From Caldifarciminota bacterium (GTDB lineage Bacteria > Hydrothermota > Tepidihabitantia > B3-TA06), in contig JAFGSK010000003.1 in assembly GCA_016934635.1 (NCBI GenBank), positions 62,001 to 126,000 on the forward strand: a stretch of 64,000 bases of DNA, given 5' to 3'. The first letter of the stretch is position 1; each line of letters begins with the position of its first letter. Below, piece by piece: positions 34,000 through 47,182 of the stretch. The notes under the pieces were generated by a model. The model did not search any database. It worked only from the letters and a program-made list of their open reading frames with translations, and had not been told where the DNA came from. The position numbers and the translations under genes were made by a program.

Positions 34000-34021
34000 C
34001 TTCCTTCAATACGAAATTTAC

Positions 34022-34044
34022 AGCCGCCTTCGGGCGGCTTTTCT
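34022..34044 (+). terminator. terminator after rpoD
   Basis: The 7-bp stem AGCCGCC/GGCGGCT with a TTCG tetraloop (34022-34039) is followed by TTTTCT. It ends the grpE-to-rpoD block. Confidence 0.9.
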
Positions 34045-34071
34045 CTGTTCAGGGGTGAAAAATAAGCGCCC

Positions 34072-34136
34072 CAAAAGCGGGACAAAAGCATGACAAAAGC
34101 GGGACAAAAGACCCCCAAAAGTAGGACAAATAGCGA
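34072..34136. repeat. 11-bp tandem repeat (minisatellite)
   Basis: Five full 11-mers and a partial sixth lie head to tail: CAAAAGCGGGA, CAAAAGCATGA, CAAAAGCGGGA, CAAAAGACCCC, CAAAAGTAGGA, CAAATAGCGA. The array starts the accessory island right after the rpoD terminator. Confidence 0.88.
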
Positions 34137-34242
34137 CCAGGGGTCGCATGCGCCGTAGCCGCTAGAGGCGGCATGTGCCGAACTTCGTTCGGCGAGCAGG
34201 AACAGCACGGCTTGGTTGTTCGGCGGCCAGGTTACGCGTTCG

Positions 34243-34284
34243 GTTGACGGCTGACAGCTCACGGCTGACGGCTAACGGCTGATA
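34243..34284 (-). repeat. period-7 tandem array, array 2
   Basis: Six heptamers GTTGACG, GCTGACA, GCTCACG, GCTGACG, GCTAACG, GCTGATA. Read on the minus strand they match the CNGTNAG consensus of the array at 16256. The rest of 34137-34389 is repeat-like, GC-rich and non-coding. Confidence 0.82.
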
Positions 34285-34389
34285 AGGTGAAGTTCGCCGA
34301 AGGCGAGATAGTGAACAGGTGAATTGAAACACAGAGGATACGGAGAGCACAGAGGGCGGAGCGCACCCTCTCAGGGTGTTGGGCGGGTT

Positions 34390-34488
34390 CTAATCCGATC
34401 CTTCGACTATTTTTATCTCATTATCAGTGAGGCCGTATAGTTCGTAAACCAGGTTGTCAATCTCGGTGTCGGCTATTTTGTCGTTTGA
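34390..34488 (-). pseudogene. 3' remnant of a type IIG methyltransferase gene
   Basis: The minus-strand frame here ends with DTEIDNLVYELYGLTDNEIKI before a TAG stop. The methyltransferase at 36182-39037 ends with almost the same residues (DTEIDNLVYELYGLTDEEIKI), and the DNA is similar too. Only about the last 30 codons are left, with nothing upstream resembling the rest of the enzyme, so this is a decayed duplicate of a gene end. It lies just downstream of the TPR gene. Confidence 0.7.
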
Positions 34489-34513
34489 GGGCTTCGCGTA
34501 TCCGAACAACTTG

Positions 34514-35104
34514 CTACTCTTCTGTAGCCTTATCCCACCAGTCGAATTCGTCCGGGAACTTCTTGTAGTTTTCATCAAACCAATCGAACAACTCCGCATC
34601 ATAGAAGCCGCCCTTATTGAAGCGGGTCTCAAACTCCGTAAAGGTCATACCCATCCTGATTCCAAGTATCATGTTTCGCGCCCCGATGTTGTCATTTGGA
34701 TTGGTCCGAAGCAGCTTCCGCAATAGGTTAAGGGCCTCGTCCGTTTGTTTCTTGTGCCACAAAGAAACAGCCTTGTTGTAGATGGCTTTTACAATGTGCC
34801 GGTTGTCCAGCCACGCCCATTCGATAACGTCTGGCCAGTTTCCCTCCTTGTTCGTTATCAGTGATATTGCTCGTCTATAGGCCTCATCGGTTAACTTTTC
34901 AGCTTCTTTGACTTTGCCTTCATCCTGCAAAAGGTCGTTCAGGAAAAGATAGGCGTCCAAAAAGTTAGGGTCAGTCTTTATGATCTTCTTCAGCCGGAGC
35001 TTGACGATTTTAGCGTTCCGTCCGTTGTAGCTTTCACAAATATCGTAGTATTCGGCGGACGCCTTCCGTTCCTTGTCGTAGAACTCTCTGAGTTTCTTCT
35101 TCAT
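34514..35104 (-). CDS. TPR-repeat protein, unknown role
   Basis: The ATG at 35104 follows GAGGTGAAG, and a start 18 bp further upstream is less likely. The 196-residue protein is soluble and alpha-helical, with tetratricopeptide-like repeats (NAKIVKLRLKKIIKTDPNFLDAYLFLNDLL, AIYNKAVSLWHKKQTDEALNLL) spanning about residues 25-140. A conserved-looking end is rich in Phe, Trp and Asp (FDWFDENYKKFPDEFDWWD). Such proteins occur sporadically near mobile DNA. It has its own promoter (35286-35313). A remnant of a methyltransferase gene lies just downstream. Confidence 0.7.
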   Translation of the reverse strand: MKKKLREFYDKERKASAEYYDICESYNGRNAKIVKLRLKKIIKTDPNFLDAYLFLNDLLQDEGKVKEAEKLTDEAYRRAISLITNKEGNWPDVIEWAWLDNRHIVKAIYNKAVSLWHKKQTDEALNLLRKLLRTNPNDNIGARNMILGIRMGMTFTEFETRFNKGGFYDAELFDWFDENYKKFPDEFDWWDKATEE

Positions 35105-35225
35105 GCTTACTTCACCTCGCAATTGATTTTTTTATACTTTTCACTCATTTCAAGCCTAGCCCTGATGTGGAGTATGGGCAAGCGAAACTACCTTTCGTAG
35201 TTCTCATAACCCGTCCATATTTTTT

Positions 35226-35249
35226 TTGACGGACAGGAGAGTCCGTCCT
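35226..35249. repeat. palindromic hairpin upstream of TPR gene
   Basis: GACGGAC and GTCCGTC, separated by 6 nt, form a strong stem in the leader of the TPR gene. On the minus strand it is followed by A, not T, so it is not a terminator for that gene. It may be a small REP-like element. Confidence 0.5.
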
Positions 35250-35285
35250 CTACAATCCCACTGCTTCACCTTGAGATGTTTACCG

Positions 35286-35313
35286 ACTATACCAGCACGG
35301 CCGGGGTTGTCAA
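35286..35313 (-). promoter_or_regulatory. promoter of TPR gene
   Basis: TTGACA (35313-35308) and TATAGT (35291-35286) on the minus strand, 16 bp apart. The leader to the ATG is about 175 nt and holds the hairpin at 35226. Confidence 0.7.
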
Positions 35314-35363
35314 CTAAAATGAATTATCAGGAAAGGATTCGGGGGATTGGTAGGAGCACTTGG

Positions 35364-35398
35364 CGGTGAGTGGATGGTGGTATGCGGACAGCGGTAAA
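35364..35398 (+). repeat. period-7 tandem array, array 3 (degenerate)
   Basis: Five heptamers CGGTGAG, TGGATGG, TGGTATG, CGGACAG, CGGTAAA, a weaker version of the CNGTNAG pattern. Confidence 0.6.
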
Positions 35399-35454
35399 TG
35401 GAGCGCACCCTCATCGTGCCCCGTCGGGTGCACAGGGTATCGGGCAGGCTAACT

Positions 35455-35480
35455 GTAGGGGCAAATCACGATTTGCCCTA
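35455..35480. repeat. REP-like palindrome (GTAGGGGC family) downstream of RAYT gene
   Basis: TAGGGGCAAAT and ATTTGCCCTA arms flank a 3-4 nt centre, 20 bp past the RAYT stop. The GTAGGGGC core is shared with the palindromes at 35757, 36146 and 44186-44390. Confidence 0.75.
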
Positions 35481-35499
35481 TCCTCAACGTTAATTCTCT

Positions 35500-36123
35500 C
35501 TAAAGTGAAGCAATCCATTTATCGAAATCGTCTTCACCTTCCCGGGTTGGATTGTTTCTATCCAGGTGCCATCGGAAGGGATTAGTCTGGATATATTCAA
35601 AGATTCGGTTCATTGATTTCTCGATTCGAATAACGTGTTCCCAGTAGTTTCGCTGCCACACTGAAAATCCCCGGGTGTTTCTCATCTGGTTAATACGTTT
35701 GGCTGTGTTCATTTTGAACCATCCGACCAATTTGGGGATCAACATATTACGGCGGACCCGTAGGGGCGTTTGGCTGCGCCGCTTCGCGTCATGAACTGCC
35801 CCTACGGGCGGTTTGCTTACCGCCCGTACAATATTATCCCGTGCATCGGGATCCCAAATAATACATACAATCCCGTGTACGTGATTGGGCATTACAACGA
35901 ATGCAACAGATTCCGTTTTCGGGTAACGCTGCGGGATTTTATTCCAATACGATTGAACGATTTCGCCGAATTCATTTAATTTCATACCGTTATCGGAAAT
36001 TTCCCCAAAGATGCTTTCGCCGTTACGGGTGCACATGGTCAGAAAATAGCATCCGGGTTGAGAATAGTCGTAGCGTTTTAACCGGATACTACGGCGGTGG
36101 TGTTTTTCAGGGTCGTATTTCAT
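35500..36123 (-). CDS. REP-associated tyrosine transposase (RAYT, Y1/HUH family)
   Basis: This 207-residue IS200-like transposase-family protein has an N-terminal SIRLKRYDYSQPGCYFLTMCT strand region and the HUH motif in VVMPNHVHGIV. A helix containing MNTAKRINQMR follows, and then WQRNYWEHVIR, whose Tyr is the likely nucleophile, with YIQTNPFRW near the end. RAYTs nick and join single-stranded DNA at REP palindromes and are usually single-copy, domesticated genes. This gene has a GTAGGGGC palindrome on each side (35455 and 36146). A third pair of hairpins lies inside the coding region (35757-35825, about residues 100-122) and is read through in frame. No terminal inverted repeats of an insertion sequence are seen. 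Confidence 0.9.
   Translation of the reverse strand: MKYDPEKHHRRSIRLKRYDYSQPGCYFLTMCTRNGESIFGEISDNGMKLNEFGEIVQSYWNKIPQRYPKTESVAFVVMPNHVHGIVCIIWDPDARDNIVRAVSKPPVGAVHDAKRRSQTPLRVRRNMLIPKLVGWFKMNTAKRINQMRNTRGFSVWQRNYWEHVIRIEKSMNRIFEYIQTNPFRWHLDRNNPTREGEDDFDKWIASL
35757..35825. repeat. two palindromes inside the RAYT coding sequence
   Basis: CCCGTAGGGGC (35757-35767) pairs with GCCCCTACGGG (35798-35808). Next to it GGGCGGT (35806-35812) pairs with ACCGCCC (35819-35825). The first belongs to the GTAGGGGC family. Both are translated in frame as part of a loop of the RAYT protein. Confidence 0.8.
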
Positions 36124-36145
36124 AGGGGTGTTGTAGAGGTACGAT

Positions 36146-36173
36146 GTAGGGGCAGTTCATGAACTGCCCCTAC
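36146..36173. repeat. perfect 28-bp REP palindrome upstream of RAYT gene
   Basis: GTAGGGGCAGTTCA is followed directly by its exact reverse complement, 22 bp before the RAYT start. Two further half-sites ending GCCCCTAC follow at 36190-36215, up to the methyltransferase stop. Confidence 0.88.
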
Positions 36174-36181
36174 CGATAATG

Positions 36182-39037
36182 TCATGAACTGCCCCTACGT
36201 GAATCGCCCCTACGGATGATTTTAATCTCCTCATCGGTCAACCCGTACAGTTCGTAAACCAGGTTGTCTATTTCGGTGTCGGTGGCGGCAATCTGGCGTT
36301 TCAGGCGTTGGGCGGTGTCCGGCACCTTGGCGTCTGCAAGTTGCTTGTTCAGTTCCAGCATCCGCTCCACCAGTTCAACCATCCGGTCGTGGCGCTTTAT
36401 GTCCTCAGGGTCGTTAAAGTCAATGGTGGCAAAAGGCATAGAAGCCAGTTCATTTGTACCAACATTATTATTACTACTGGTTATTTTGAAACGCCACTGG
36501 AATAAATTGGAATTAAGTAAGCCTAGTAAATATTGAATATCATAATTTACCTTGCTGGTTAGGCTTATTGAATTTGTAGAATCTGCAAAATGTGTAGTTG
36601 GTTCAATTAAGGTAGCGACGATCCTTAAACGTTCATCTACACCTGTGATTCGTTGTGTTGCCAGTCTCCTTTTCAACGAATAAATATTTGACTTCCCATC
36701 TGCTAGATACTTCTTTTCATTAAACCACTCGCGTTCGCCCTGACTCAATTTAATGTGAATAAGATATTGACCGACTTCAACACCCTTTAATAATCTCGCC
36801 ATAGATGTATCACTACTTATGTATTTTCGATAAATGGTTTGGTTTATTTCGCCTCTACGAATATCGAAACAAGGTTCGTCCCCTAAACGCCTAACTTCTT
36901 TCTTTGAATGTATTTTTCGACAGAGTTCCCAATCTTTCCTAGCCACTAGAGGTATGGGAATATTATTTGGATCTAGTAATTTCAGATCAATTAATTTTAT
37001 TTCACTTTGTTGAAATGTTTCTTCAAAACTTCGACCAGGAAATACTCTCATTCTGATTTTTGCTTTTTTTTCAATTTGCTTAGTGTATTTGCTACAAGTT
37101 ATTACTGCAGTTGAGAGCTTTGCGTTTCTAAATACTCTCCTTTTGGGGTCATCCTTTTGTGGAAAACAATCTGCTAATAAATTGTTCGAACTAGTCATTA
37201 AATGCTTTCGACACTTGGCACAACTAATATCTGCTAGTAAAGAAAGTGGTATAATCATACCAAATCTCTTCTTATCCTTTAGTAAGTTAAGCGATCTAAC
37301 GATGAAAAATCTATAGAGGTTTAACTTACCACCAAGTGCAAGTTCGTATTCTGGGTTGATTCTTACGTACTCTCTCAAAATCTGATGCGGTTGGTCACTT
37401 CCCTTTCTTTCTTTTTCTAATACATCATACGGCGGATTCCCGATAACCGCGTCGAAGCCGCCTGCGCCCTGGCTTGCTTCTTCTGCCGATACGATGATAG
37501 AGTTAAGGATAGGCTCGATGCGCTCCCTGGAGACAAGGGGTGCCTTTGAGACAAGGGGTTTAAACCCCTTGTCTGTCGCAGTCGCTGTCGAATCTGCCCG
37601 GTACTTCGAGACTTCCGAGACAATGGGCTTAAGCCCATTGTCTACCTCGTCTTCGTCTGCTTCTGGGGAATGCTTCAGATGGTTGTTCTGAACGTAGTTG
37701 AGTATAGTGTAAAAGGCCTTCTCGTCTTTAATTGGCTTCCGGTTGAATTTCTGCGCCCACACCTTATTCCCTATTTCCCACCCTAACGCTTTCTGAAACT
37801 GTCTTGAGCTGTATCCTTTGATCTTACGAACATGTTCGTTAAGTTCCTGTTCGGTTTCAGCGGCAATAACCATATGCACGTGATCTGCTAAAACGTTCCA
37901 GGCAACTACCGGCACTTTATGTCTTTGACAAGCCTCTGCAATCTTTTCTGCAATCAAAACCTGATCGTCAGGCGTGAAGACAAGGGGCTTAGAGGCAAGG
38001 GGCTTAAGCCCCTTGCCCCGGGAAAGCCCCTTGTCTAACATTCTTTCTGAAATCCTGGAATTATGTGTAACGAAGGTAACGAACCAGAAATATCGCGATT
38101 CTCCAAGCATAATCTCTGCAAACTCAACATCCCAATCGAAGGCGTTAATCCGGTACTGTTCCTCGGCATCGAACATCCCGGTTTGCCTGCCCTGGTAGAA
38201 GTCCGAGCCAATCAGCGAGTTGCCGCACTTGATGTTGGAACCCAGGTCGGGCAATGCCCGCTGGTGGAACATCTGCATCTGCCGGTTCAGGGTTTCTTCG
38301 TTCTCGCCCTCCAGCACCTTGAGGAGTAAGGAGAGCTTGGTAACCTCCACCGCCTGGGGGTCTATGTCCACCCCGTAGATGTTGTTAATAAGTATCCGCT
38401 TTCGCTCCTCGGCGGTCAGCCGCCATTGTTTATCCGTAATCTGGTAGAGCTTCTTTTTGTGCTTTGCCGCGCCTTCTTCTATGTAGTAATCCCGGTGCCA
38501 GTCCAGAAGATACTGGTAAGCGCCCAAAAGGAACGAACCCGAACCGCACGCCGGGTCCAGTATCCTGAGCTTTGCAACCTGCGCCGGGGTCTTGCCCTTG
38601 CACAGCTTGCCCACGGTGTTGGCAACGATGTAGTCAACGATGTAGGTGGGGGTGTAGTAAACGCCCCCGGCCTTGCGCACCTCGGGCTTTTCTTCTATCT
38701 TCGCGTGATGCGCTTTGGTCAGCCTGATGACCTTGCCCAGGAACTGCTCGTACACCTGCCCCAGGATGTCTGCGGGAAGCACCGAGAACTCGTAAGGGCT
38801 GTCAGGATAGTAAAGATCATTGAGGATGGACTTGAGCTTGTCGTCGTCTATCTCGAGGCCCAGTGTAAGATCGTCGGGCGGTTCGTCCCGGCCCTTCTCG
38901 TCCTTGAAATGGAACAGGCCGAAGTTGTTTCCATGGAGCTGCGGGTGCAAGTCGCAGCGAGTGAAGGCGACGCAGTTGTCTCCGCAGATGACGCAGATTG
39001 ATTGAGCTAAAACCGGGGGCGCCGGGAGCAATTTCAA
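36182..39037 (-). CDS. type IIG-like N6-adenine DNA methyltransferase with in-frame HUH transposase-like domain, 5' truncated
   Basis: This 951-residue Eco57I-type methyltransferase shows the entry helix FLGKVIRLT...GGVYYTPTYIVDYIV, motif I DPACGSGSFLLGA (161-173), NIYGVDIDPQAVEV, the catalytic motif NPPY (534-537), and a C-terminal target-recognition region ending DTEIDNLVYELYGLT. Between FDWDVEFAEIM (~310) and GGFDAVIGNPPY (~527), where relatives run on directly, about 215 residues are inserted. They contain a Y1/HUH domain (WFVTFVTHNSRISERML, VVAWNVLADHVHMVI with HVH at 386-388, NYVQNNHLKH) and in-frame palindromes that read GLKPLAS, GLKPIVS and GFKPLVS. Family similarity begins only near FGLFHF (~residue 39). 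The usual N-terminal nuclease part is missing, and the first ~38 codons overlap a dispersed repeat. The TTG start is therefore uncertain, and restriction activity is unlikely unless supplied elsewhere. Confidence 0.85.
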   Translation of the reverse strand: MKLLPAPPVLAQSICVICGDNCVAFTRCDLHPQLHGNNFGLFHFKDEKGRDEPPDDLTLGLEIDDDKLKSILNDLYYPDSPYEFSVLPADILGQVYEQFLGKVIRLTKAHHAKIEEKPEVRKAGGVYYTPTYIVDYIVANTVGKLCKGKTPAQVAKLRILDPACGSGSFLLGAYQYLLDWHRDYYIEEGAAKHKKKLYQITDKQWRLTAEERKRILINNIYGVDIDPQAVEVTKLSLLLKVLEGENEETLNRQMQMFHQRALPDLGSNIKCGNSLIGSDFYQGRQTGMFDAEEQYRINAFDWDVEFAEIMLGESRYFWFVTFVTHNSRISERMLDKGLSRGKGLKPLASKPLVFTPDDQVLIAEKIAEACQRHKVPVVAWNVLADHVHMVIAAETEQELNEHVRKIKGYSSRQFQKALGWEIGNKVWAQKFNRKPIKDEKAFYTILNYVQNNHLKHSPEADEDEVDNGLKPIVSEVSKYRADSTATATDKGFKPLVSKAPLVSRERIEPILNSIIVSAEEASQGAGGFDAVIGNPPYDVLEKERKGSDQPHQILREYVRINPEYELALGGKLNLYRFFIVRSLNLLKDKKRFGMIIPLSLLADISCAKCRKHLMTSSNNLLADCFPQKDDPKRRVFRNAKLSTAVITCSKYTKQIEKKAKIRMRVFPGRSFEETFQQSEIKLIDLKLLDPNNIPIPLVARKDWELCRKIHSKKEVRRLGDEPCFDIRRGEINQTIYRKYISSDTSMARLLKGVEVGQYLIHIKLSQGEREWFNEKKYLADGKSNIYSLKRRLATQRITGVDERLRIVATLIEPTTHFADSTNSISLTSKVNYDIQYLLGLLNSNLFQWRFKITSSNNNVGTNELASMPFATIDFNDPEDIKRHDRMVELVERMLELNKQLADAKVPDTAQRLKRQIAATDTEIDNLVYELYGLTDEEIKIIRRGDSRRGSS
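37549..37574. repeat. perfect palindrome, AGACAAGGGG family
   Basis: AGACAAGGGGTTT is followed by its exact reverse complement. A half-site AGACAAGGGG lies 18 bp to the left (37531). It is translated in frame as part of the methyltransferase. Confidence 0.9.
37618..37643. repeat. perfect palindrome, AGACAATGGG variant
   Basis: AGACAATGGGCTT is followed by its exact reverse complement. It differs from the 37549 copy by paired changes that keep the symmetry. Confidence 0.9.
37978..38036. repeat. nested palindromes, AGACAAGGGG family
   Basis: The outer arms AGACAAGGGGCTT (37978-37990) and AAGCCCCTTGTCT (38024-38036) enclose a perfect 24-bp palindrome GGCAAGGGGCTT plus its complement (37994-38017). 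It encodes GLSRGKGLKPLASKPL in the HUH domain. Confidence 0.9.
38938..38983 (-). repeat. 46-bp dispersed repeat, copy 2
   Basis: This is the reverse complement of a sequence about 89% identical to 16190-16235. It covers codons ~19-34 of the methyltransferase frame, the part without family similarity. Confidence 0.75.
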
Positions 39038-39060
39038 ATATCAAAAATCAAATATCAAAT
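39033..39060. repeat. period-7 array (ATCAAAT)
   Basis: Four heptamers TTCAAAT, ATCAAAA, ATCAAAT, ATCAAAT lie at the extreme 5' end of the methyltransferase frame and overlap its TTG start codon. Confidence 0.75.
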
Positions 39061-39152
39061 GTCACCGGAGGGCGACGCTTGCGGAGTAAATTTCAAAATG
39101 ACAGGCCGCGGGCGGCAGAACGGCGCAGGCGTTTAGGGTGAACTTGAAGGGC

Positions 39153-39240
39153 TTGACAAAAGGTGAAAGTTTATTACACTTATTAGGTAAACATTTTTTT
39201 TCAAAGTCGCTGTTGACAAGTGAACTAAGGGAAGTATATT
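39153..39240 (+). promoter_or_regulatory. two tandem promoters of the unknown two-gene cassette
   Basis: P1 is TTGACA (39153-39158) and TACACT (39175-39180). P2 is TTGACA (39213-39218) and TATATT (39235-39240). Each has a 16-bp spacer. P2 lies 24 bp upstream of the ATG at 39264, so the cassette is transcribed by itself. Confidence 0.7.
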
Positions 39241-39263
39241 AACGCTAGCCAAACGAGGAGACG

Positions 39264-40463
39264 ATGAACACCAAAGATTCAGAACCAACTATCAAGACAC
39301 GACGTGAGCTTTACGACTACTATGAGATGCAAATGAATAAAGCTTACCGTGAGGTTCTGAAAGCACGTAGACTGGAGTCTGATAGTACCTTTATAAAAAC
39401 TTACATGGTGGAGTTTGACTGGGGTGAAGAGGAAAGAAAAGGGGGTGTCGATTTTCTCAGAAAAACATTAGCGTTAACGCCAACACAACATCGAAAAACA
39501 CTAGTGATGCCAACAGTCCATGAAACTGACGAAGATGGATTCTTTTCCGTTGATTGGTTAAGGAAAGATAAGAAGTTGAGGGTTTATTTTGATACTATTA
39601 CAGACCCAGATAGGCGATTTTGGTTGGCATATTCACTCTCCGACGCGAATCTGTTAGATGCCGTTATGGATAGATTAGCTATGTCTCATTCGTGTTTTGA
39701 CAGGGCTTGGCTGTGGCCGGATATTTTGAAAGAAACCCAAGCGATGGGTGAGTTTCGTGGAGTTGGCTTAGATTACGATTACCGGGCGTTTGAATCTAGA
39801 GAAGAAAAAGGGCACAGGGAATCTACGAACTATTTTAAAGTTCAAATTTGGGGTGGGCGCGAAACAGAAGAAATACTCAATTTCATTACGAAAAAATTCG
39901 AGAAAAAAACAGTACTTTCCAAAGTAAGATTAAAATATACCACGGATGGTGAATATTCCGGACACTTTGCACTTGAGGATATAAAGTACAACGGGAAGTT
40001 TACAGCCAGAGGAACGTCTTTCCAGACCCACCAGATTCTAGTGAGTAATTTACGAACCCGCTACTCAAAAATTATTAAGAGACTTGAAGAAAACTATATT
40101 ATTAGACTGAATGACGTAAAAGGGGAAGAGTCTATTGAAGGGAATCCGATTTTCTTTGACCTAAGCAGAAACCCGATAGAAAACATGGATGCTTTTTGTG
40201 ATGTCGTCTTTGCTGGTACAATGCCTTTTCGTCTTTGGGGCGTACCGTTCCCAATGGAAAACGAGCCTAATGGGAGGGTAGTTTCCGCAGTAGACCTTCA
40301 CAGTGGATCGAAATTGTTCTTTGAAATCTACCCCGATATCATTTCAGTTTACCTTTATCGTGGTGCTTGCGGGAATTCTATTGCGAGGTTTTTTACTAAT
40401 ATTCAACACAGGTTCAGTAAACTGGTTTTGGCAGAAGATAACGATGGAACCCAACTCTTTTAA
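39264..40463 (+). CDS. uncharacterised protein, first gene of a two-gene cassette
   Basis: This 399-residue soluble protein starts at an ATG after CGAGGAGA. It has no signal peptide, membrane segment or motif that I recognise. The N-terminal third is charged and helical (TIKTRRELYDYYEMQMNKAYREVLKARRLES). The middle has acidic-aromatic blocks (WLRKDKKLRVYFDTITDPDRRFWLAYSLSD, CFDRAWLWPDILKE) and the rest alternates strands and helices. Base composition is more AT-rich than the core genes, suggesting transfer. The second gene starts inside its last 20 bp, so the two products are probably translated together. Position beside a restriction-modification-type enzyme, a RAYT and a broken NYN gene makes a defence or other selfish role possible but unproven. 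Confidence 0.75.
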   Translation: MNTKDSEPTIKTRRELYDYYEMQMNKAYREVLKARRLESDSTFIKTYMVEFDWGEEERKGGVDFLRKTLALTPTQHRKTLVMPTVHETDEDGFFSVDWLRKDKKLRVYFDTITDPDRRFWLAYSLSDANLLDAVMDRLAMSHSCFDRAWLWPDILKETQAMGEFRGVGLDYDYRAFESREEKGHRESTNYFKVQIWGGRETEEILNFITKKFEKKTVLSKVRLKYTTDGEYSGHFALEDIKYNGKFTARGTSFQTHQILVSNLRTRYSKIIKRLEENYIIRLNDVKGEESIEGNPIFFDLSRNPIENMDAFCDVVFAGTMPFRLWGVPFPMENEPNGRVVSAVDLHSGSKLFFEIYPDIISVYLYRGACGNSIARFFTNIQHRFSKLVLAEDNDGTQLF

Positions 40464-41403
40464 TCTTAACGTTATAAACATCTTTGCAGGTTTAATGAAA
40501 GGCCACAAGTTTTTGCGGCCTCACTCTACGAAGATTAAAAAGTTAGGGTATACTCTTTTCAGGGTTGAAATGGATATAACTGTACCGTCTTTAGGTACAA
40601 CAAGGGTAGATGGAATCGGGCAATCTGTACAACAAAGACATACGATATTAGCAGAGTGGACGAGTAGAAACATGCCGGGTGTTGACAAGGAGAGGCAGAT
40701 AGAAAAATACTTATCGGTGACAGCAGATACTCTTTCTGCAGTAGGGGGCGTAAACCGTGAAGCTGCAACTCAGAATAGTACGTGGTTAATTTTATCGCCT
40801 GGCTCCGAAAACAACTACATGAGTTTTCTCAATGAGAAGACAAGAGATAAGTTGATGATATCTACCTTTGGAGTAAAGCAGAGTAGCGATAACGGTGCGA
40901 CCTATGGGCTGGTTTATTTTGCGGGTGAATCGCAGGATTCAGAACTTGCAAACATCCTCAAAGAGGATATCAAGGTGAGGCGTCTACCTCAAGGTTATGT
41001 AAAAGTATCAATTGATGATACGAGTCTCAAAGGTTTGGCTAATGAAGTCGTGGTTGATATAAAGACTCATTTCGTTCGTGGGAAATACGAAGTGTCCGAA
41101 GAAGACATCATTAGAGGTGTTTACAAGGAACTATGGAGGTATATTGGTCCCCGTGCAAAACACGACATTGTAAAAGGCATCAGAGGCGTCCTAAAAGAAA
41201 TGTTGAGGAAGAATTATTTAAGAGATTGGATTCAAAGAATAAGTGAAAATCCACATGTCTGGAAGATTATGATTCCTGAGAAAAAAGATATAAATCTTGT
41301 CGGGCGGCAATTCCGGATAACCTTGGAAAAATTTATTGCTGAAGTATACGGAAAAAGTCCTAGGCAAAAGGAATTATTCGAAGAAATAGACGATACTTTT
41401 TAA
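40444..41403 (+). CDS. uncharacterised protein, second gene of the cassette (possible nuclease fold)
   Basis: The open frame extends upstream to 40303, but the ATG at 40444, overlapping the end of the first gene by 20 bp, is the natural coupled start and gives 319 residues. The segment FRVEMDITVP-TRVDGIGQ-HTILAEWTS-KERQIEKYLSV has the strand-strand-helix spacing of restriction-endonuclease-like folds, with Asp in VDG and Glu in AEWTS. The usual ExK lysine is replaced by Thr, so this is only a hint. The C-terminal third is helical and basic (KHDIVKGIRGVLKEMLRKNYLRDWIQRI). No close family is recognised. It is AT-rich like its partner. Confidence 0.72.
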   Translation: MEPNSFNLNVINIFAGLMKGHKFLRPHSTKIKKLGYTLFRVEMDITVPSLGTTRVDGIGQSVQQRHTILAEWTSRNMPGVDKERQIEKYLSVTADTLSAVGGVNREAATQNSTWLILSPGSENNYMSFLNEKTRDKLMISTFGVKQSSDNGATYGLVYFAGESQDSELANILKEDIKVRRLPQGYVKVSIDDTSLKGLANEVVVDIKTHFVRGKYEVSEEDIIRGVYKELWRYIGPRAKHDIVKGIRGVLKEMLRKNYLRDWIQRISENPHVWKIMIPEKKDINLVGRQFRITLEKFIAEVYGKSPRQKELFEEIDDTF

Positions 41404-41465
41404 TCTCCCCTAACAGCTTTCGTCGCCTTCAGCAATTCTGTAGAGGTTGGAATTTCCCCGGTCTT

Positions 41466-41655
41466 CCCCGTCCCGCCGGGCACACGCTCACAGTCGGCGC
41501 CGAAGTTGCCGTCACCCTCTCCCATCGGGAGATGGATGGGGAGAGGGATGGGGCGAGGGATTAAGTACGGCACTGCAGCTCAGGCCTCTTTGTCCTTCCT
41601 CCGCTGTCTGTTAATATTCGGGTAACCCCGGCCCCTGCGTCCCGACATCCAGGCG
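41466..41655. repeat. direct repeat flanking the NYN gene, left copy
   Basis: About 190 bp, highly similar to 42458-42636 in the same orientation. It includes GGCGCCGAAGTTGCC, the hairpin-forming CCCTCTCCCATCGGGAGA stretch, GATTAAGTACGGC and CCCCTGCGTCCCGACATCC. This copy has an ~11-bp internal duplication in the GGGAGATGGATGGGG part. The stretch 41404-41816 holds this repeat and the NYN promoter. A minus-strand open frame across it (41580-42251) is a shadow. Confidence 0.88.
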
Positions 41656-41715
41656 CTCGAACGCGTCGGTCTCGCAGAGCCTGGCAACCGCGTGTCGGAT
41701 GGCACTTTTACGCTC

Positions 41716-41743
41716 TTGACAACATATGGAATTCTCCTATAAT
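41716..41743 (+). promoter_or_regulatory. promoter of the NYN gene
   Basis: TTGACA (41716-41721) and TATAAT (41738-41743), 16 bp apart, full consensus. Confidence 0.78.
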
Positions 41744-41816
41744 CAATCAAGTATGAATTGCTCCCCGCTCGACTTGCCCCTGTGGCCCGAGCGGGGTTAT
41801 CTTTATAAAGGGAGGA

Positions 41817-42446
41817 ATGACGGCTCAGGAACCGGCTAACAAAAGAATAATTGCCTTTATTGATGGGCAAAACCTCTTCCACGGGGCAAAGGAAGCATTC
41901 GGCTACACCCATCCCAACTATGACGTTCTCGCTTTGGCGAAAGCTATCTGCGCTATGCAGGGATGGGATTTCGGCAAGGTGCGCTTTTATACAGGCATAC
42001 CCGATCCATCGGACGATCCTTTCTGGCACGGCTTTTGGAGCAAGAAGTTGTTGACGATAAGCCGTCAGGGTGTTTATGTCTATTCTCGTTCGTTGCGCTA
42101 TCGAAATAAGCGCGTCAAGCTGCCGGGCGGAACCTACGCGACCTATCTGACCGGTTAAGAAAAAGGAATAGACGTCCGAATCGCCCTTGATATTATACGC
42201 ATGGCGCATCGAGGAGCCTACGACGTAGCCCTGGTGTTCAGCGAGGATCAAGACCTGTCAGAGGTGGCGGAGGAGATACGCACAATCTCCCAGGAGCAGA
42301 ATCGCTGGATAAAGATGGCCTGCGCATTTCCCTACAGCCCAACCCACAAAGCGCGAGGCATCAATAAAACCGATTGGGTTAAAATCGATAAAACGTTATA
42401 CGATTTCTGTCTCGACACGAGAGATTACCGGCCTAAATTAAAGTAG
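41817..42446 (+). pseudogene. NYN-domain (LabA/DUF88-like) putative RNase, interrupted by an in-frame stop
   Basis: Codons 1-113 encode the first half of a NYN/PIN-like domain (IIAFIDGQNLFHGAKEAFG, VRFYTGIPD, GVYVYSRSLRYRN, LPGGTYATYLTG). A TAA at 42156-42158 then interrupts the frame. The same frame continues at once with EKGIDVRIALDIIRMAHRGAYDVALVFSEDQDLSEVAEEIR and ends at 42446, exactly as NYN proteins do. One nonsense change (for example CAA to TAA) in a 209-codon gene explains this. The acidic residues of the fold (IDG, DVRIALD, EDQD) are kept on both sides. Suppression of the stop cannot be excluded. The gene has a full-consensus promoter, AGGGAGGA before the ATG, and long direct repeats on both sides. 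Confidence 0.85.
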
Positions 42447-42457
42447 AAGTCGGAATA

Positions 42458-42636
42458 CCCCTGTCCCGGCGGGCACGCACTCACCGTCGGCGCCGAAGTT
42501 GCCGTCACCCTCTCCCATCGGGAGAGGGATGGGGTGAGGGATTAAGTACGGCGCTGCAGCTCAGGCCTCTTTGTTCTTCCTCCGGCATCTGTAAATATTC
42601 GAGTAACCCCGGCCCCTGCGTCCCGACATCCAGGCG
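42458..42636. repeat. direct repeat flanking the NYN gene, right copy
   Basis: About 179 bp matching 41466-41655. A shorter related piece (CGTCCCGGGATCCAGGCGCT and following) occurs at 44377-44433 and matches 41631-41692. Confidence 0.88.
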
Positions 42637-42657
42637 GTCCAGCGTGCCCGGGTGAGA

Positions 42658-42685
42658 TTGACAAATTGAATATTTTGTGTACTAT
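42658..42685 (+). promoter_or_regulatory. promoter of propeller protein gene at 42743
   Basis: TTGACA (42658-42663) and TACTAT (42680-42685), 16 bp apart. Confidence 0.65.
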
Positions 42686-42742
42686 GGAAATCTGATTCGT
42701 GTAAAACCCTATAATCTGAGTTAAAATCTCAAGGAGTCTGTC

Positions 42743-44155
42743 ATGAGATATAGCGTTATCGCTTTGTGTCTTTTTTCAGTCTCGTTATTCGCCAACAAGG
42801 CCGAAGTAGTATCCGAGGATGTAATCCCTCGCTGGATGTCGCTCGATGCCGACACCACAGGCCGTCCGCATCTTGCTTACTACGCGATAGACGAGGCTTC
42901 GTCACCCTATTCGTGGCGCATCACATATGCAACGAAGAACGGTTCGTGGCAGAAGCTGGTTGTGGACAGCTCAAAGGCGGTATCTCACGATCCTGCGGGT
43001 CCGCCCGACGTATCGCTCGCGCTGGATGAGAACGATGTTCCTGCAATGACCTACTGGAGGGATATTACGGATGACAGTCTATGCTATGCTCACAAGGAGG
43101 GCTCCGCATGGCAGGTGGACGCGATACTTGATATCTACCCCTCGTGGCCGACGTTAAGGTTCGGCGGCGCCGTACCGTTCATCGTCTATTCCCGTTACAT
43201 CGCCGACAGCAGCTGGGTGTTCATCGGTTCGGCAGGCCAATCGCCGACAGGCTGGGTGTGGGATTCAACCGGGGTCAAGGAGCGTCTTAACCTTTCGGAC
43301 AGGATACTGGACTTCGTCTGGACCGGGTCGAACGCCGAGATACTCTACATCTATTCCTCGGGCACGGGGTACAAGCGGCTCGTGAGGCCTTTGAGCTGGG
43401 ACGGCGACTGGACTTATGCCCCGTCCATAGACTCCACTGGTTCCGATCCTCGTGAGTCGGGCGTGCACATGGCCTTGAGCCGCAGCGGTATCGTGGGCGC
43501 TTGCTTCGCGCACCAGGACAACGGCGGTTCAGGCGGACCTTACGGCCTCTACTACGTAACGCATTCGGGCTCGGGTCAGCTCGAAATAGTCGATACGATG
43601 CTTATGAAGACCGGCTCGGCCAACTCCCTGTATTGCGGCCCGGCCATCGCGTACGATACCTTGAACAGACCGCACATCGTGTACGTTTCCGAAGGCGCCT
43701 CAGGCGCATGGATACTTACTCACGCGTGGAAGCAGGGTTCCGGCTGGCAAATGGAAACACTTGATACGCTGAGCAATTCCAACCTGTTCCGTGCGGAAGT
43801 CTCGATCGATAGACTCAATCGTCTGCACGTAGCCTATATCGCGAGCAGCGGGAGCGACAACAGCCTCTATTACCTCGCGCCGGGCGGCTCAGGAGTCATC
43901 GAGGAGAAATCCGAAACCCGGGAGCCGGCGCTCGAAGCGGCATACATCCTGTCCTCAGGCGATGTCAGGTTCAACATCCCTGGAATCGATAATGCCCTGG
44001 TCGACGTGTACAACTCCACGGGCAGGCTGGTTGAAACCTTAACGATAACAGATGACTCCGGAACGTGGCATGCCGAAGGGTCACCGCAGGGTGTTTACTA
44101 CGCAAGGGTCAGAGGCGCTTCGCCGGTTGCGGCAAAGGTGGTATTGTTGAAGTAA
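42743..44155 (+). CDS. secreted beta-propeller-like protein with C-terminal sorting domain
   Basis: This 470-residue exoprotein has a signal peptide (YSVIALCLFSVSLFANKA). Repeated strands with the pattern RPHLAYY, VPAMTYW, RPHIVYV and RLHVAYI at about 60-70 residue spacing suggest a propeller. A C-terminal domain (VRFNIPGIDNALVDVYNSTGRLVETLTI...GVYYARV...KVVLLK) matches type IX-style sorting signals. It is not closely similar to the three BNR paralogues at 6509-12970. GC content looks higher than in the neighbouring accessory genes. The ATG follows AAGGAG. A palindromic region follows the stop. Confidence 0.75.
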   Translation: MRYSVIALCLFSVSLFANKAEVVSEDVIPRWMSLDADTTGRPHLAYYAIDEASSPYSWRITYATKNGSWQKLVVDSSKAVSHDPAGPPDVSLALDENDVPAMTYWRDITDDSLCYAHKEGSAWQVDAILDIYPSWPTLRFGGAVPFIVYSRYIADSSWVFIGSAGQSPTGWVWDSTGVKERLNLSDRILDFVWTGSNAEILYIYSSGTGYKRLVRPLSWDGDWTYAPSIDSTGSDPRESGVHMALSRSGIVGACFAHQDNGGSGGPYGLYYVTHSGSGQLEIVDTMLMKTGSANSLYCGPAIAYDTLNRPHIVYVSEGASGAWILTHAWKQGSGWQMETLDTLSNSNLFRAEVSIDRLNRLHVAYIASSGSDNSLYYLAPGGSGVIEEKSETREPALEAAYILSSGDVRFNIPGIDNALVDVYNSTGRLVETLTITDDSGTWHAEGSPQGVYYARVRGASPVAAKVVLLK

Positions 44156-44185
44156 GGAACTTAGAGTCGACCCACGTTCTTTTTC

Positions 44186-44390
44186 GGGGCCGGTCTGATA
44201 CCCTATGGGATAAAATTATCCCAAGGGGCACTCTGAGACCGGCCCCTACGTCTATTCTTCTCTCAAATTCAACACTCAGTCTGTAGAAGCCCGTAGGGGC
44301 CGATGTTCACGGCCCAGACGTGGGCTTCTCGTTAGGTCGGCATAAACTTACCATTCCGAGCTGACCTGAAGGTCAGCCCCTACGTCCCGG
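44186..44390. repeat. cluster of GTAGGGGC-family palindromes
   Basis: The arms GGGGCCGGTCT (44186-44196) and AGACCGGCCCC (44236-44246) enclose a second palindrome GGGATAAAATTATCCC (44207-44222). Further units are CCCGTAGGGGCC near 44290-44300 and GCTGACCTGAAGGTCAGC followed by CCCTAC at 44360-44382. These match the REP core seen around the RAYT gene 8 kb away. The cluster could also end transcription of the propeller gene. Confidence 0.7.
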
Positions 44391-44465
44391 GATCCAGGCG
44401 CTCGAACGCGCCCTTCTCGCAGAGCCCACCGCGACTGACCGGACGCCACTTGAGCCTACCTTGCA

Positions 44466-44528
44466 TTGTCAGCGGTCAGCCGTCAGCTGTGTGCTGTCAG
44501 CCGTTAGCGGTATGCGGTGAACGGTGAG
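44466..44528 (+). repeat. period-7 tandem array, array 4
   Basis: Nine consecutive heptamers TTGTCAG, CGGTCAG, CCGTCAG, CTGTGTG, CTGTCAG, CCGTTAG, CGGTATG, CGGTGAA, CGGTGAG. This is the longest and cleanest of the CNGTNAG arrays, and it ends 20 bp before the -35 of the next gene. Confidence 0.88.
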
Positions 44529-44547
44529 CGCCTGAACATCCAGGGGC

Positions 44548-44575
44548 TTGACAAGTCGAGGTTCATCCGTAGGAT
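44548..44575 (+). promoter_or_regulatory. promoter of gene at 44611
   Basis: TTGACA (44548-44553) and TAGGAT (44570-44575), 16 bp apart. Confidence 0.65.
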
Positions 44576-44610
44576 AATCGTGAGGAAAATTAATCGATGC
44601 GAGGTGAAGA

Positions 44611-45987
44611 ATGCTATACGGGTTTCCAATAGTTCTCGGATTAGTGATAAGTGGGGGAGGTTTCCAGGCGAAATTCGCCATAGAACCAGCTTTTCTGAGC
44701 AAGGAATTACCGATGCTGTCCCTTTTTTTCCCATACGGACCTGACGGCAGCTATTATTTTAACAATAGAATTTCGGCAAAGCTTGGTAAGGAATTTCAAA
44801 ATGGGTTGGTTGTGAGGGGCGTAGGTGGATTCGCGCAGTCCTTTGTGCGGAACGGGCTTTCATGCTGCGATCCTTATGGGTACACCAATTGGTTTACCCT
44901 GGAGGGTAGTTTGGGTTTAGAGCTTGGTTACCAGGTGAGATTCAGAAAGGGAAAAGGAGAACTGTTCTGCGGGCTGGAAGGGGTTTTCGCCTGGCTGGAC
45001 GGTAATCACATAGACGAGTTATATACTGAAGACTGGTCATTTTATTACGAAACCTATAATCTGCAAACTTTTGGAATAGGGCCCCAGGCCTACATAGGTT
45101 TGAGTTATCCCGTGGCAAATTTAGGTAAGGGATCCCTGCGTTTGACCACCGGTTTAAGAGGAGGTGCAATTTTTCTTGAACCGACTTACCTCGAGAGTGG
45201 AATTGCCTGGAAAGGATACCCTTCAGTCAACGGTGCAATGCCCAGATGGGGTATTTCGGTTGGCTTTGAGTTCGTTCCTGGGCAGGGCGCCGTTGACCTT
45301 GCTGATTTACCAGACTTAAGGTGTCAATACGAATTCAAGAAAGATACATTATCCACTTGTTGCTGCGTCGGTGGGTGTTGTTTATCGGGTTGCGATTGGG
45401 GCGGTAGGGAGATGATTGATATGGTACATCGATGGCCTCCGATAGTTGCACAGAGCGTTGTTACTTTCGTAATCGGGCCTGCCTTAGGCAACGCGGTGGG
45501 TATATGCGGTGCAGCAATGTTATGGGACGCCACATTCGACGACTTCCACAGGTTTCCGTTCGGGTTCGGGTTTTACATCTGGCCTGCAGTAGGTTCGGTT
45601 ATTGGGGCTTATGGATCAGGCGTCCTTTTCAACCCCGGGGGATGCCTGGGTTACACTATAGCCGGTGCTTTGACAGGTAACCTGGCAAATTTAGTTCTTA
45701 CTCAGAGTTACATAAGCATCACCGGGCGAAACACCTGGGTGGTTCGCTGGCCGCCGTTTTCAGTATCTTATAATCCCGATGTTATAGCTGTCATGGCGGT
45801 TGGTTCATTGCTTCCGGTCGCAGGTGCAGTGGTCGGCTACAACCTGAGCCTGAAGCACGCCCGGGAGTCGACACCGGATACTATGGGCTTAAGGCCAACC
45901 TGGACCGAGCGGGTGGCTGCCGATTTTAATCCTCATTTTGCCAATACTTCAGGTATAGAGATTGCGTCGGTTACGTTTGATTTCTAA
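44611..45987 (+). CDS. membrane-associated protein of unknown function with Cys cluster
   Basis: This 458-residue protein starts at an ATG after GAGGTGA. Residues 1-225 alternate short strands with Gly and aromatic residues (LGLELGYQVRF, GPQAYIGLSYPV, LRLTTGLRGGAIF, RWGISVGFEFVPG), like an outer-membrane beta-barrel. A cysteine cluster CCCVGGCCLSGC lies at 250-261. After it come several Gly/Ala-rich hydrophobic helices (IVAQSVVTFVIGPALGNAVGI, FGFGFYIWPAVGSVIGAYGSG, VMAVGSLLPVAGAVVG), and the end is ASVTFDF. The mix of barrel-like and helical segments is odd. I do not recognise the family. Confidence 0.6.
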   Translation: MLYGFPIVLGLVISGGGFQAKFAIEPAFLSKELPMLSLFFPYGPDGSYYFNNRISAKLGKEFQNGLVVRGVGGFAQSFVRNGLSCCDPYGYTNWFTLEGSLGLELGYQVRFRKGKGELFCGLEGVFAWLDGNHIDELYTEDWSFYYETYNLQTFGIGPQAYIGLSYPVANLGKGSLRLTTGLRGGAIFLEPTYLESGIAWKGYPSVNGAMPRWGISVGFEFVPGQGAVDLADLPDLRCQYEFKKDTLSTCCCVGGCCLSGCDWGGREMIDMVHRWPPIVAQSVVTFVIGPALGNAVGICGAAMLWDATFDDFHRFPFGFGFYIWPAVGSVIGAYGSGVLFNPGGCLGYTIAGALTGNLANLVLTQSYISITGRNTWVVRWPPFSVSYNPDVIAVMAVGSLLPVAGAVVGYNLSLKHARESTPDTMGLRPTWTERVAADFNPHFANTSGIEIASVTFDF

Positions 45988-46008
45988 AAACGACTCGTTC
46001 CAAATCGG

Positions 46009-46036
46009 TTGACAGACTCCTCAGAGCACCTATAAT
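46009..46036 (+). promoter_or_regulatory. promoter of gene at 46061
   Basis: TTGACA (46009-46014) and TATAAT (46031-46036), 16 bp apart, full consensus. Confidence 0.78.
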
Positions 46037-46060
46037 CAATGATAATTCAAGGAGGATCGA

Positions 46061-47182
46061 TTGGCTCATGCTTACACGCCGGGACTCAAGGTAACGGCCA
46101 GGACGAAGATCGTTAAGGAACGCAGGCTTCCGCTTCAGGGTGAAGTGGTTGTTTCCAGGGGAGACAAGGTCAAAGGCGATACCGTCGTCGCTCAAACCTC
46201 GCTTCCCGGCAACGTGACAACCCTTAATGTGGGAGCGCTTCTTGGCGTACAGCCCCATGACGTTCCCGAACTGATGCTCAAGAAGGCAGGCGAGAAAATA
46301 GTCAAGGACGAACCGATAGCCCAAAGCAAGGGACTTTTCGGTGTATTCAAGTCCACCGTTCCTTCCCCGATCACGGGTGAGATTGAAAGTATCTCTCCCA
46401 TAACCGGGCAGGTTATTCTGCGTGAACCGCCTCAGCCTGTTGAGGTCGACGCCTATGTGGACGGTCAGGTAGTCAAGATATTTGAGCAGGAAGGGGTTGA
46501 GGTGGAAACCACTGGCAGCCTTATCCAGGGCATCTTCGGTTTCGGTGGGGAACGCCGGGGCCGGATCAAGGTTGTTGCCAAGACCCGTGAAGACGTTTTG
46601 GATGCAAATTCGCTTACGGCGGAGATGAAAGGTTGTGTGGTAACCGGGGGGTCACTCGTAACCGCCGATGCGATAGAAAAGGCCGTCAGCCTGGGTATCA
46701 AGGGGCTTGTTGCAGGAGGGATAGAAGATGCCTCGATCAAAAAGGCTTTAGGATACGATATCGGCGTTGCCATTACCGGTTCCGAGTCGATCGAAGTAAC
46801 GGTTATTGTAACCGAGGGCTTCGGCAAGATGCCCATGGCTCCGCGGACTTTTGAACTTCTAAAGGAACTGGATGGAAAGCTGGCTTCCATCAACGGTGCA
46901 ACTCAGATAAGAGCAGGGGTGATGCGTCCGGAAATAATAGTTCCCGGCGCGGATCTGGTCAAGAAAGAATCAAAAAGTTCGCTTGAAGAAGGACTCAAGG
47001 TCGGGATGCAGGTGCGGATCATACGAGCCCCTCATTTCGGGAGCATCGGGTCGGTGGTAAACCTCCCGGTAAACCTTGAGGATATTGAAACCGAATCAAA
47101 AGTAAGAGTACTAGAGGTGGAACTTGAAGGGAAAAAACGCATTCGGTTGCCGCGAGCCAATGTTGAAATCATTGAAGCGTAG
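46061..47182 (+). CDS. conserved-looking hypothetical protein with KOW-like C-terminus
   Basis: The TTG start at 46061 follows AAGGAGGA. The 373-residue soluble protein has an N-terminal beta-rich part resembling barrel-sandwich/lipoyl-like folds (LPLQGEVVVSRGDKVKGDTVVAQ, VPSPITGEIESISPITGQVILREPP). A central alpha/beta domain follows (GCVVTGGSLVTADAIEKAVSLGIKGLVAGGI, GVAITGSESIEVTVIVTEGFG), and then a C-terminal KOW/SH3-like segment (GMQVRIIRAPHFGSIGSVVNLPV). There is no signal peptide. It overlaps the start of the next gene. Its function is unknown. The nucleotide-binding-like Gly loops in the middle are only suggestive. Confidence 0.65.
   Translation: MAHAYTPGLKVTARTKIVKERRLPLQGEVVVSRGDKVKGDTVVAQTSLPGNVTTLNVGALLGVQPHDVPELMLKKAGEKIVKDEPIAQSKGLFGVFKSTVPSPITGEIESISPITGQVILREPPQPVEVDAYVDGQVVKIFEQEGVEVETTGSLIQGIFGFGGERRGRIKVVAKTREDVLDANSLTAEMKGCVVTGGSLVTADAIEKAVSLGIKGLVAGGIEDASIKKALGYDIGVAITGSESIEVTVIVTEGFGKMPMAPRTFELLKELDGKLASINGATQIRAGVMRPEIIVPGADLVKKESKSSLEEGLKVGMQVRIIRAPHFGSIGSVVNLPVNLEDIETESKVRVLEVELEGKKRIRLPRANVEIIEA

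Follow-up and report, generated by a model that had tools for sequence, protein, structure and literature searches.

We analyzed a window of 64,000 nucleotides from a Caldifarciminota bacterium, in which two overlapping genes, here called A and B, lie between a restriction-modification gene and a NYN-like gene. The features are given below with their positions in the window.

34000 to 46060, no strand assigned: 12-kb insertion holding the pair, between rpoD and the gene at 46061, delimited by comparison with relatives
36182 to 39037, minus strand: remnant of a type IIG restriction-modification gene, with the N-terminal nuclease half absent and an IS200-like transposase inside
39153 to 39180, plus strand: distal predicted sigma-70-like promoter, TTGACA-16-TACACT (consensus scan, 10/12)
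39213 to 39240, plus strand: proximal predicted sigma-70-like promoter, TTGACA-16-TATATT (consensus scan, 11/12)
39264 to 40463, plus strand: gene A, ORF of 399 amino acids, PHROG 22469 family, C-terminal motif VDLHxG...CGNxxxRxxTNIQH
40444 to 41403, plus strand: gene B, ORF of 319 amino acids from the ATG at 40444, PD-(D/E)xK-superfamily homologue
40609 to 40710, plus strand: nuclease-like core of B, with D56 (40609-40611), E71-W72-T73 (40654-40662), K82, Q85, K88, and Y89, from alignment with PD...ECK...Q..Y homologues
41817 to 42446, plus strand: NYN-like gene with an in-frame TAA at 42156-42158 and a weak PADLOC HEC-09 match

The ATG of B lies inside A, the two frames overlap by 20 nt, and both are intact. 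The sizes, overlap, and coordinates agree with those of the first-pass annotation made from the sequence, which had also described two consensus promoters ahead of the genes. Our scan recovered both sites within a region that contains nine promoter-like sites, compared with 4.5 (S.D. 2.2) expected, and a ribosome-binding-like GAGGAG can be read at 39255-39260, ahead of the ATG of A. The promoters had been called independent; instead, both predicted sites lie upstream of A and precede the pair as a whole. The description of the genes as AT-rich holds, with a GC content of 0.405 for A and 0.397 for B, compared with 0.45-0.53 in the flanking housekeeping genes, and a GC3 of 0.39 for each, compared with 0.48-0.56.

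Comparison with relatives revealed that the rpoD site, between rpoD and accA, is an insertion hotspot with defense-type turnover, being empty or holding other, partly defense-like, cargo. In a relative from the same family (G062), only 262 bp separate rpoD from the homologue of the gene at 46061, and there is no cargo. The corresponding gap in G057 holds one gene of 652 amino acids without a Pfam or PADLOC match (L047, 2004-3962), and that in G058 holds a TIR-domain gene and a 265-amino acid gene, the latter also without a Pfam or PADLOC match, in overlapping frames (L048, 2626-4379). In the same-genus genome G063, an intact type IIG restriction gene (L051, 4228-6945) starts 344 bp from the 46061 homologue, the rpoD side being off the contig.

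This intact gene is the counterpart of the one that flanks A in the window, with 91% DNA identity over 821 bp, and the match ends shortly ahead of the A-B cassette, at 38928. The window gene, previously noted as a methyltransferase, does flank the pair as stated, but it is a truncated type IIG enzyme: the N-terminal nuclease half, of ~295 residues, is missing, and a segment of IS200-like (RAYT) transposase lies in frame inside the gene. The C-terminal end of the type IIG gene occurs a second time near 34390-34632. The NYN gene on the other side was also correctly placed, but it is interrupted by the single TAA, which is either a nonsense mutation or an assembly error. A 190-bp direct repeat, 86.5% identical between its copies at 41466-41658 and 42459-42639, brackets the NYN-like gene and has only one 39-bp partial match elsewhere in the genome. 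The Abi neighbor proposed earlier was not found, as we identified no Abi gene in the island. With the neighboring restriction-modification and NYN genes broken, the island may be decaying.

Beyond the window, A-B is a real, conserved unit with a patchy distribution in bacteria and archaea. A tblastn search with A identified homologues on the 58-kb element of Methanocaldococcus jannaschii and on plasmids from Halobacterium hubeiense, Lysinibacillus irui, and Metabacillus sp., and a profile search of 147 genomes of the window's phylum added three more. Wherever both genes are visible, B lies directly downstream of A in the same orientation, and the frames overlap (7/7 loci, the window included; overlaps of 4-32 nt). 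These loci represent three WOR-3 genomes, two Bacillota plasmids, the Halobacterium plasmid, and the M. jannaschii element, thus spanning WOR-3, Bacillota, Halobacteria, and Methanococci; an eighth A locus (G034) ends at a contig edge and was left out of the count. The A homologues are only 20-32% identical to window A despite this constant pairing, which indicates that the pairing is old and maintained. The pair is present in 4/147 genomes of the phylum, among which we found no B without A, and in only M. jannaschii among 14 control genomes.

In a phylogenetic tree, another copy from the same class as the window grouped with Metabacillus (100/100) and not with the window, indicating transfer between lineages, as far as a tree of eight rows with long branches can do so. 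Scanning the genome contigs with the A alignment returned only two already known WOR-3 loci, and a single-protein scan of these contigs with B returned no relative. We set aside a Salinibaculum match (H20), a short fragment with no partner visible, and attributed to chance the weak matches of B in another three WOR-3 genomes, which lie in frames of >1200 amino acids. In the distant WOR-3 lineage G017, A-B (L028, 402-4368) once more has accA and a PorV-like gene alongside it, and a ParB-like gene is adjacent; this location reflects either chance or a shared hotspot.

The two proteins had been described as lacking recognizable families. Consistent with this, window A and window B had no match in Pfam, NCBIfam, PADLOC, or PDB sequences; A, however, belongs to PHROG 22469 (HMM, E 1.2e-39), an entry without an assigned function. 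The most conserved part of A is its C-terminal third, where V-D-x-H and C-x-N-x3-R-x3-N are invariant in eight sequences. Across these homologues, the invariant residues are Lys-45, Glu-50, Arg-118, Asp-146, Trp-149, Asp-344, His-346, Cys-369, Asn-371, Arg-375, and Asn-379. An AlphaFold model of A built from only three sequences had a mean pLDDT of 56, with higher values at the C terminus, and this low-confidence model gave no Foldseek match at E <= 0.001. The Iml3/CENP-L and TplEi matches from Foldseek were discarded as weak (TM <= 0.27).

For B, the Halobacterium homologue matched PHROG 27163 (HMM, E 1.9e-8), again an entry without an assigned function, and window B fell below the match level. 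A nuclease-like segment lacking the catalytic Lys had been noticed in window B, and the alignment of its homologues bears this out. The motif (P)(D/E)...(E/D)CK...Q occurs in B of M. jannaschii, Halobacterium, Metabacillus, and the WOR-3 genome G078, and Lysinibacillus B carries a D...EIK form; overall, (D/E)...(E/D)xK is found in 5/7 homologues and the Gln in 7/7. In window B, Asp-56 and Glu-71 are present, and Thr-73 of E71-W72-T73 occupies the Lys position.

We then compared family profiles. The B-family profile matched HSDR_N_2, represented by an alignment built from the window's phylum, with an hhalign score of 42.3 (75% probability), compared with a maximum of 17.1 among 100 column shuffles, and the alignment falls on the PD...ECK...QLxxY region of B over about 75 columns. 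Against DUF234, a PD-(D/E)xK family, the score was 27.2 (shuffle maximum, 16.2). The A-family profile, run for comparison, scored 18.6 and 13.2 against HSDR_N_2 and DUF234, respectively. The two WOR-3 E-W-T proteins alone reached only 20.9 against HSDR_N_2 but had a 95.8% probability match to the canonical B members. The B family is therefore best placed in the PD-(D/E)xK nuclease superfamily, and the relatives of window B explain its missing Lys: the protein belongs to a branch of this nuclease family that has been altered. An AlphaFold model of B from 2-3 sequences (pLDDT 38) was too poor to show the fold.

The Lys-to-Thr change at residue 73 raises the question of whether the window pair is an inactive relic, with the catalytic Lys lost from B in a decaying island, as the truncated type IIG gene and the interrupted NYN gene on either side might suggest. 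We regard this as improbable. Both A and B retain intact frames, and B of G017, only 24% identical to window B, has the same E-W-T in an intact frame and shares with it Asp-56, Glu-71, Lys-82, Gln-85, Lys-88, and Tyr-89, suggesting that the variant is long-standing and has been maintained and does not reflect recent decay. These two proteins may either cut with a rearranged site, for which Lys-82 or Lys-88 in the next helix are candidates, or only bind DNA. It is also unlikely, if somewhat less so, that the pair belongs to plasmids or proviruses and works for the upkeep or replication of those elements or for their competition with others, the chromosomal copies being leftovers. Four homologous pairs do lie on plasmids or on the M. 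jannaschii extrachromosomal element, a count biased by the fact that a plasmid collection was searched, and A and archaeal B match PHROG families. Against such a role, we detected no A-B homologue in 50,697 phage records or in IMG/VR viral contigs, the window copy has chromosomal housekeeping genes on both sides, and the visible surroundings of the WOR-3 copies include no genes for replication or transfer.

The overlapping genes and their shared predicted promoters would also suit a toxin-antitoxin pair, and the first-pass annotation had proposed an undescribed system of either defense or toxin-antitoxin-like type. The latter part does not fit: A and B proteins are both 300-440 amino acids long, no homologue matches a toxin or antitoxin family in Pfam, NCBIfam, or PADLOC, and there is no small antitoxin. 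We therefore consider a toxin-antitoxin pair very unlikely. The former part is in better agreement with our data, which reveal an undescribed, strict pair with a nuclease-derived B and defense-type turnover at its site; the defense role itself we infer from context. This context comprises the behavior of the hotspot, whose cargo in relatives includes TIR or type IIG genes, and two neighbors of the pair elsewhere: an OLD/GajA/AriA-like ATPase gene in M. jannaschii and PDC-S28, a helicase candidate in PADLOC, in Lysinibacillus. Against a defense role, no clear defense gene lies near the pair in the Halobacterium, G017, and G078 loci. In M. jannaschii, a large helicase is also encoded near A-B; we dropped the idea that it is a known defense subunit, as it has no PADLOC match.

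On balance, we find it somewhat probable that A-B is a two-gene accessory module of defense-type hotspots, composed of a nuclease-type effector, B, and a partner, A, and probably acting in defense. In such a module, A and B would be translationally coupled and would move between genomes as one. By its PD-(D/E)xK ancestry, B would be a nucleic acid-acting effector, presumably on DNA. Since neither a methyltransferase nor a small antitoxin travels with the pair, A, a large family-specific partner, most likely detects the target or holds B in check and in position, possibly within an A-B complex. If B cuts, the absence of a methyltransferase implies that specificity would come from A or from the target. 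The outcome would be defense against phage or plasmids. A fuller version of this reading, which we advance tentatively, is that A-B is an undescribed, rare defense system of bacteria and archaea, in which a new recognition or regulatory family, A, may control the PD-(D/E)xK effector B, with a WOR-3 branch that has a displaced catalytic lysine or does not cut DNA.

Several known systems resemble the pair in part. The B family shares with HSDR_N_2 (PF13588) and DUF234 (PF03008) the D...(E/D)xK...Q..Y core, the stretch of about 75 columns described above. In contrast to those families, B is a stand-alone protein of 310-440 amino acids with an unrelated C-terminal part and is always paired with A, and window B has Thr in place of Lys. 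Gabija/Septu-type defense systems are pairs of neighboring genes found in defense islands, and at least one gene of each pair encodes a nuclease-type domain. A-B is like them in its two adjacent genes, its predicted nuclease-type domain, and its defense-island setting, but neither A nor B has an ATPase, helicase, TOPRIM, or HNH domain, and PADLOC-DB 2.0, which includes Gabija/Septu-type models, gave no meaningful match for A, B, or their homologues. Unlike a restriction-modification system, A-B travels with no cognate methyltransferase; none adjoins it in the annotated homologous loci, and only in the window does a type IIG gene stand beside it. Unlike type II toxin-antitoxin systems, it contains no small toxin or antitoxin of known families.

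Both families were already known as PHROG catalogue entries, 22469 for A and 27163 for archaeal B; the A-B pair has no PADLOC entry. We found no paper on the pair in the open-access literature, a scope outside which most subscription papers fall. If the pair does act in defense, it would be a compact two-gene system, not yet represented in PADLOC, that spans both prokaryotic domains, and its Lys-to-Thr branch would offer a test of whether the canonical lysine is needed for a PD-(D/E)xK effector to act. One copy of that system would then reside on the extrachromosomal element of M. jannaschii, where its genes are still annotated as hypothetical.
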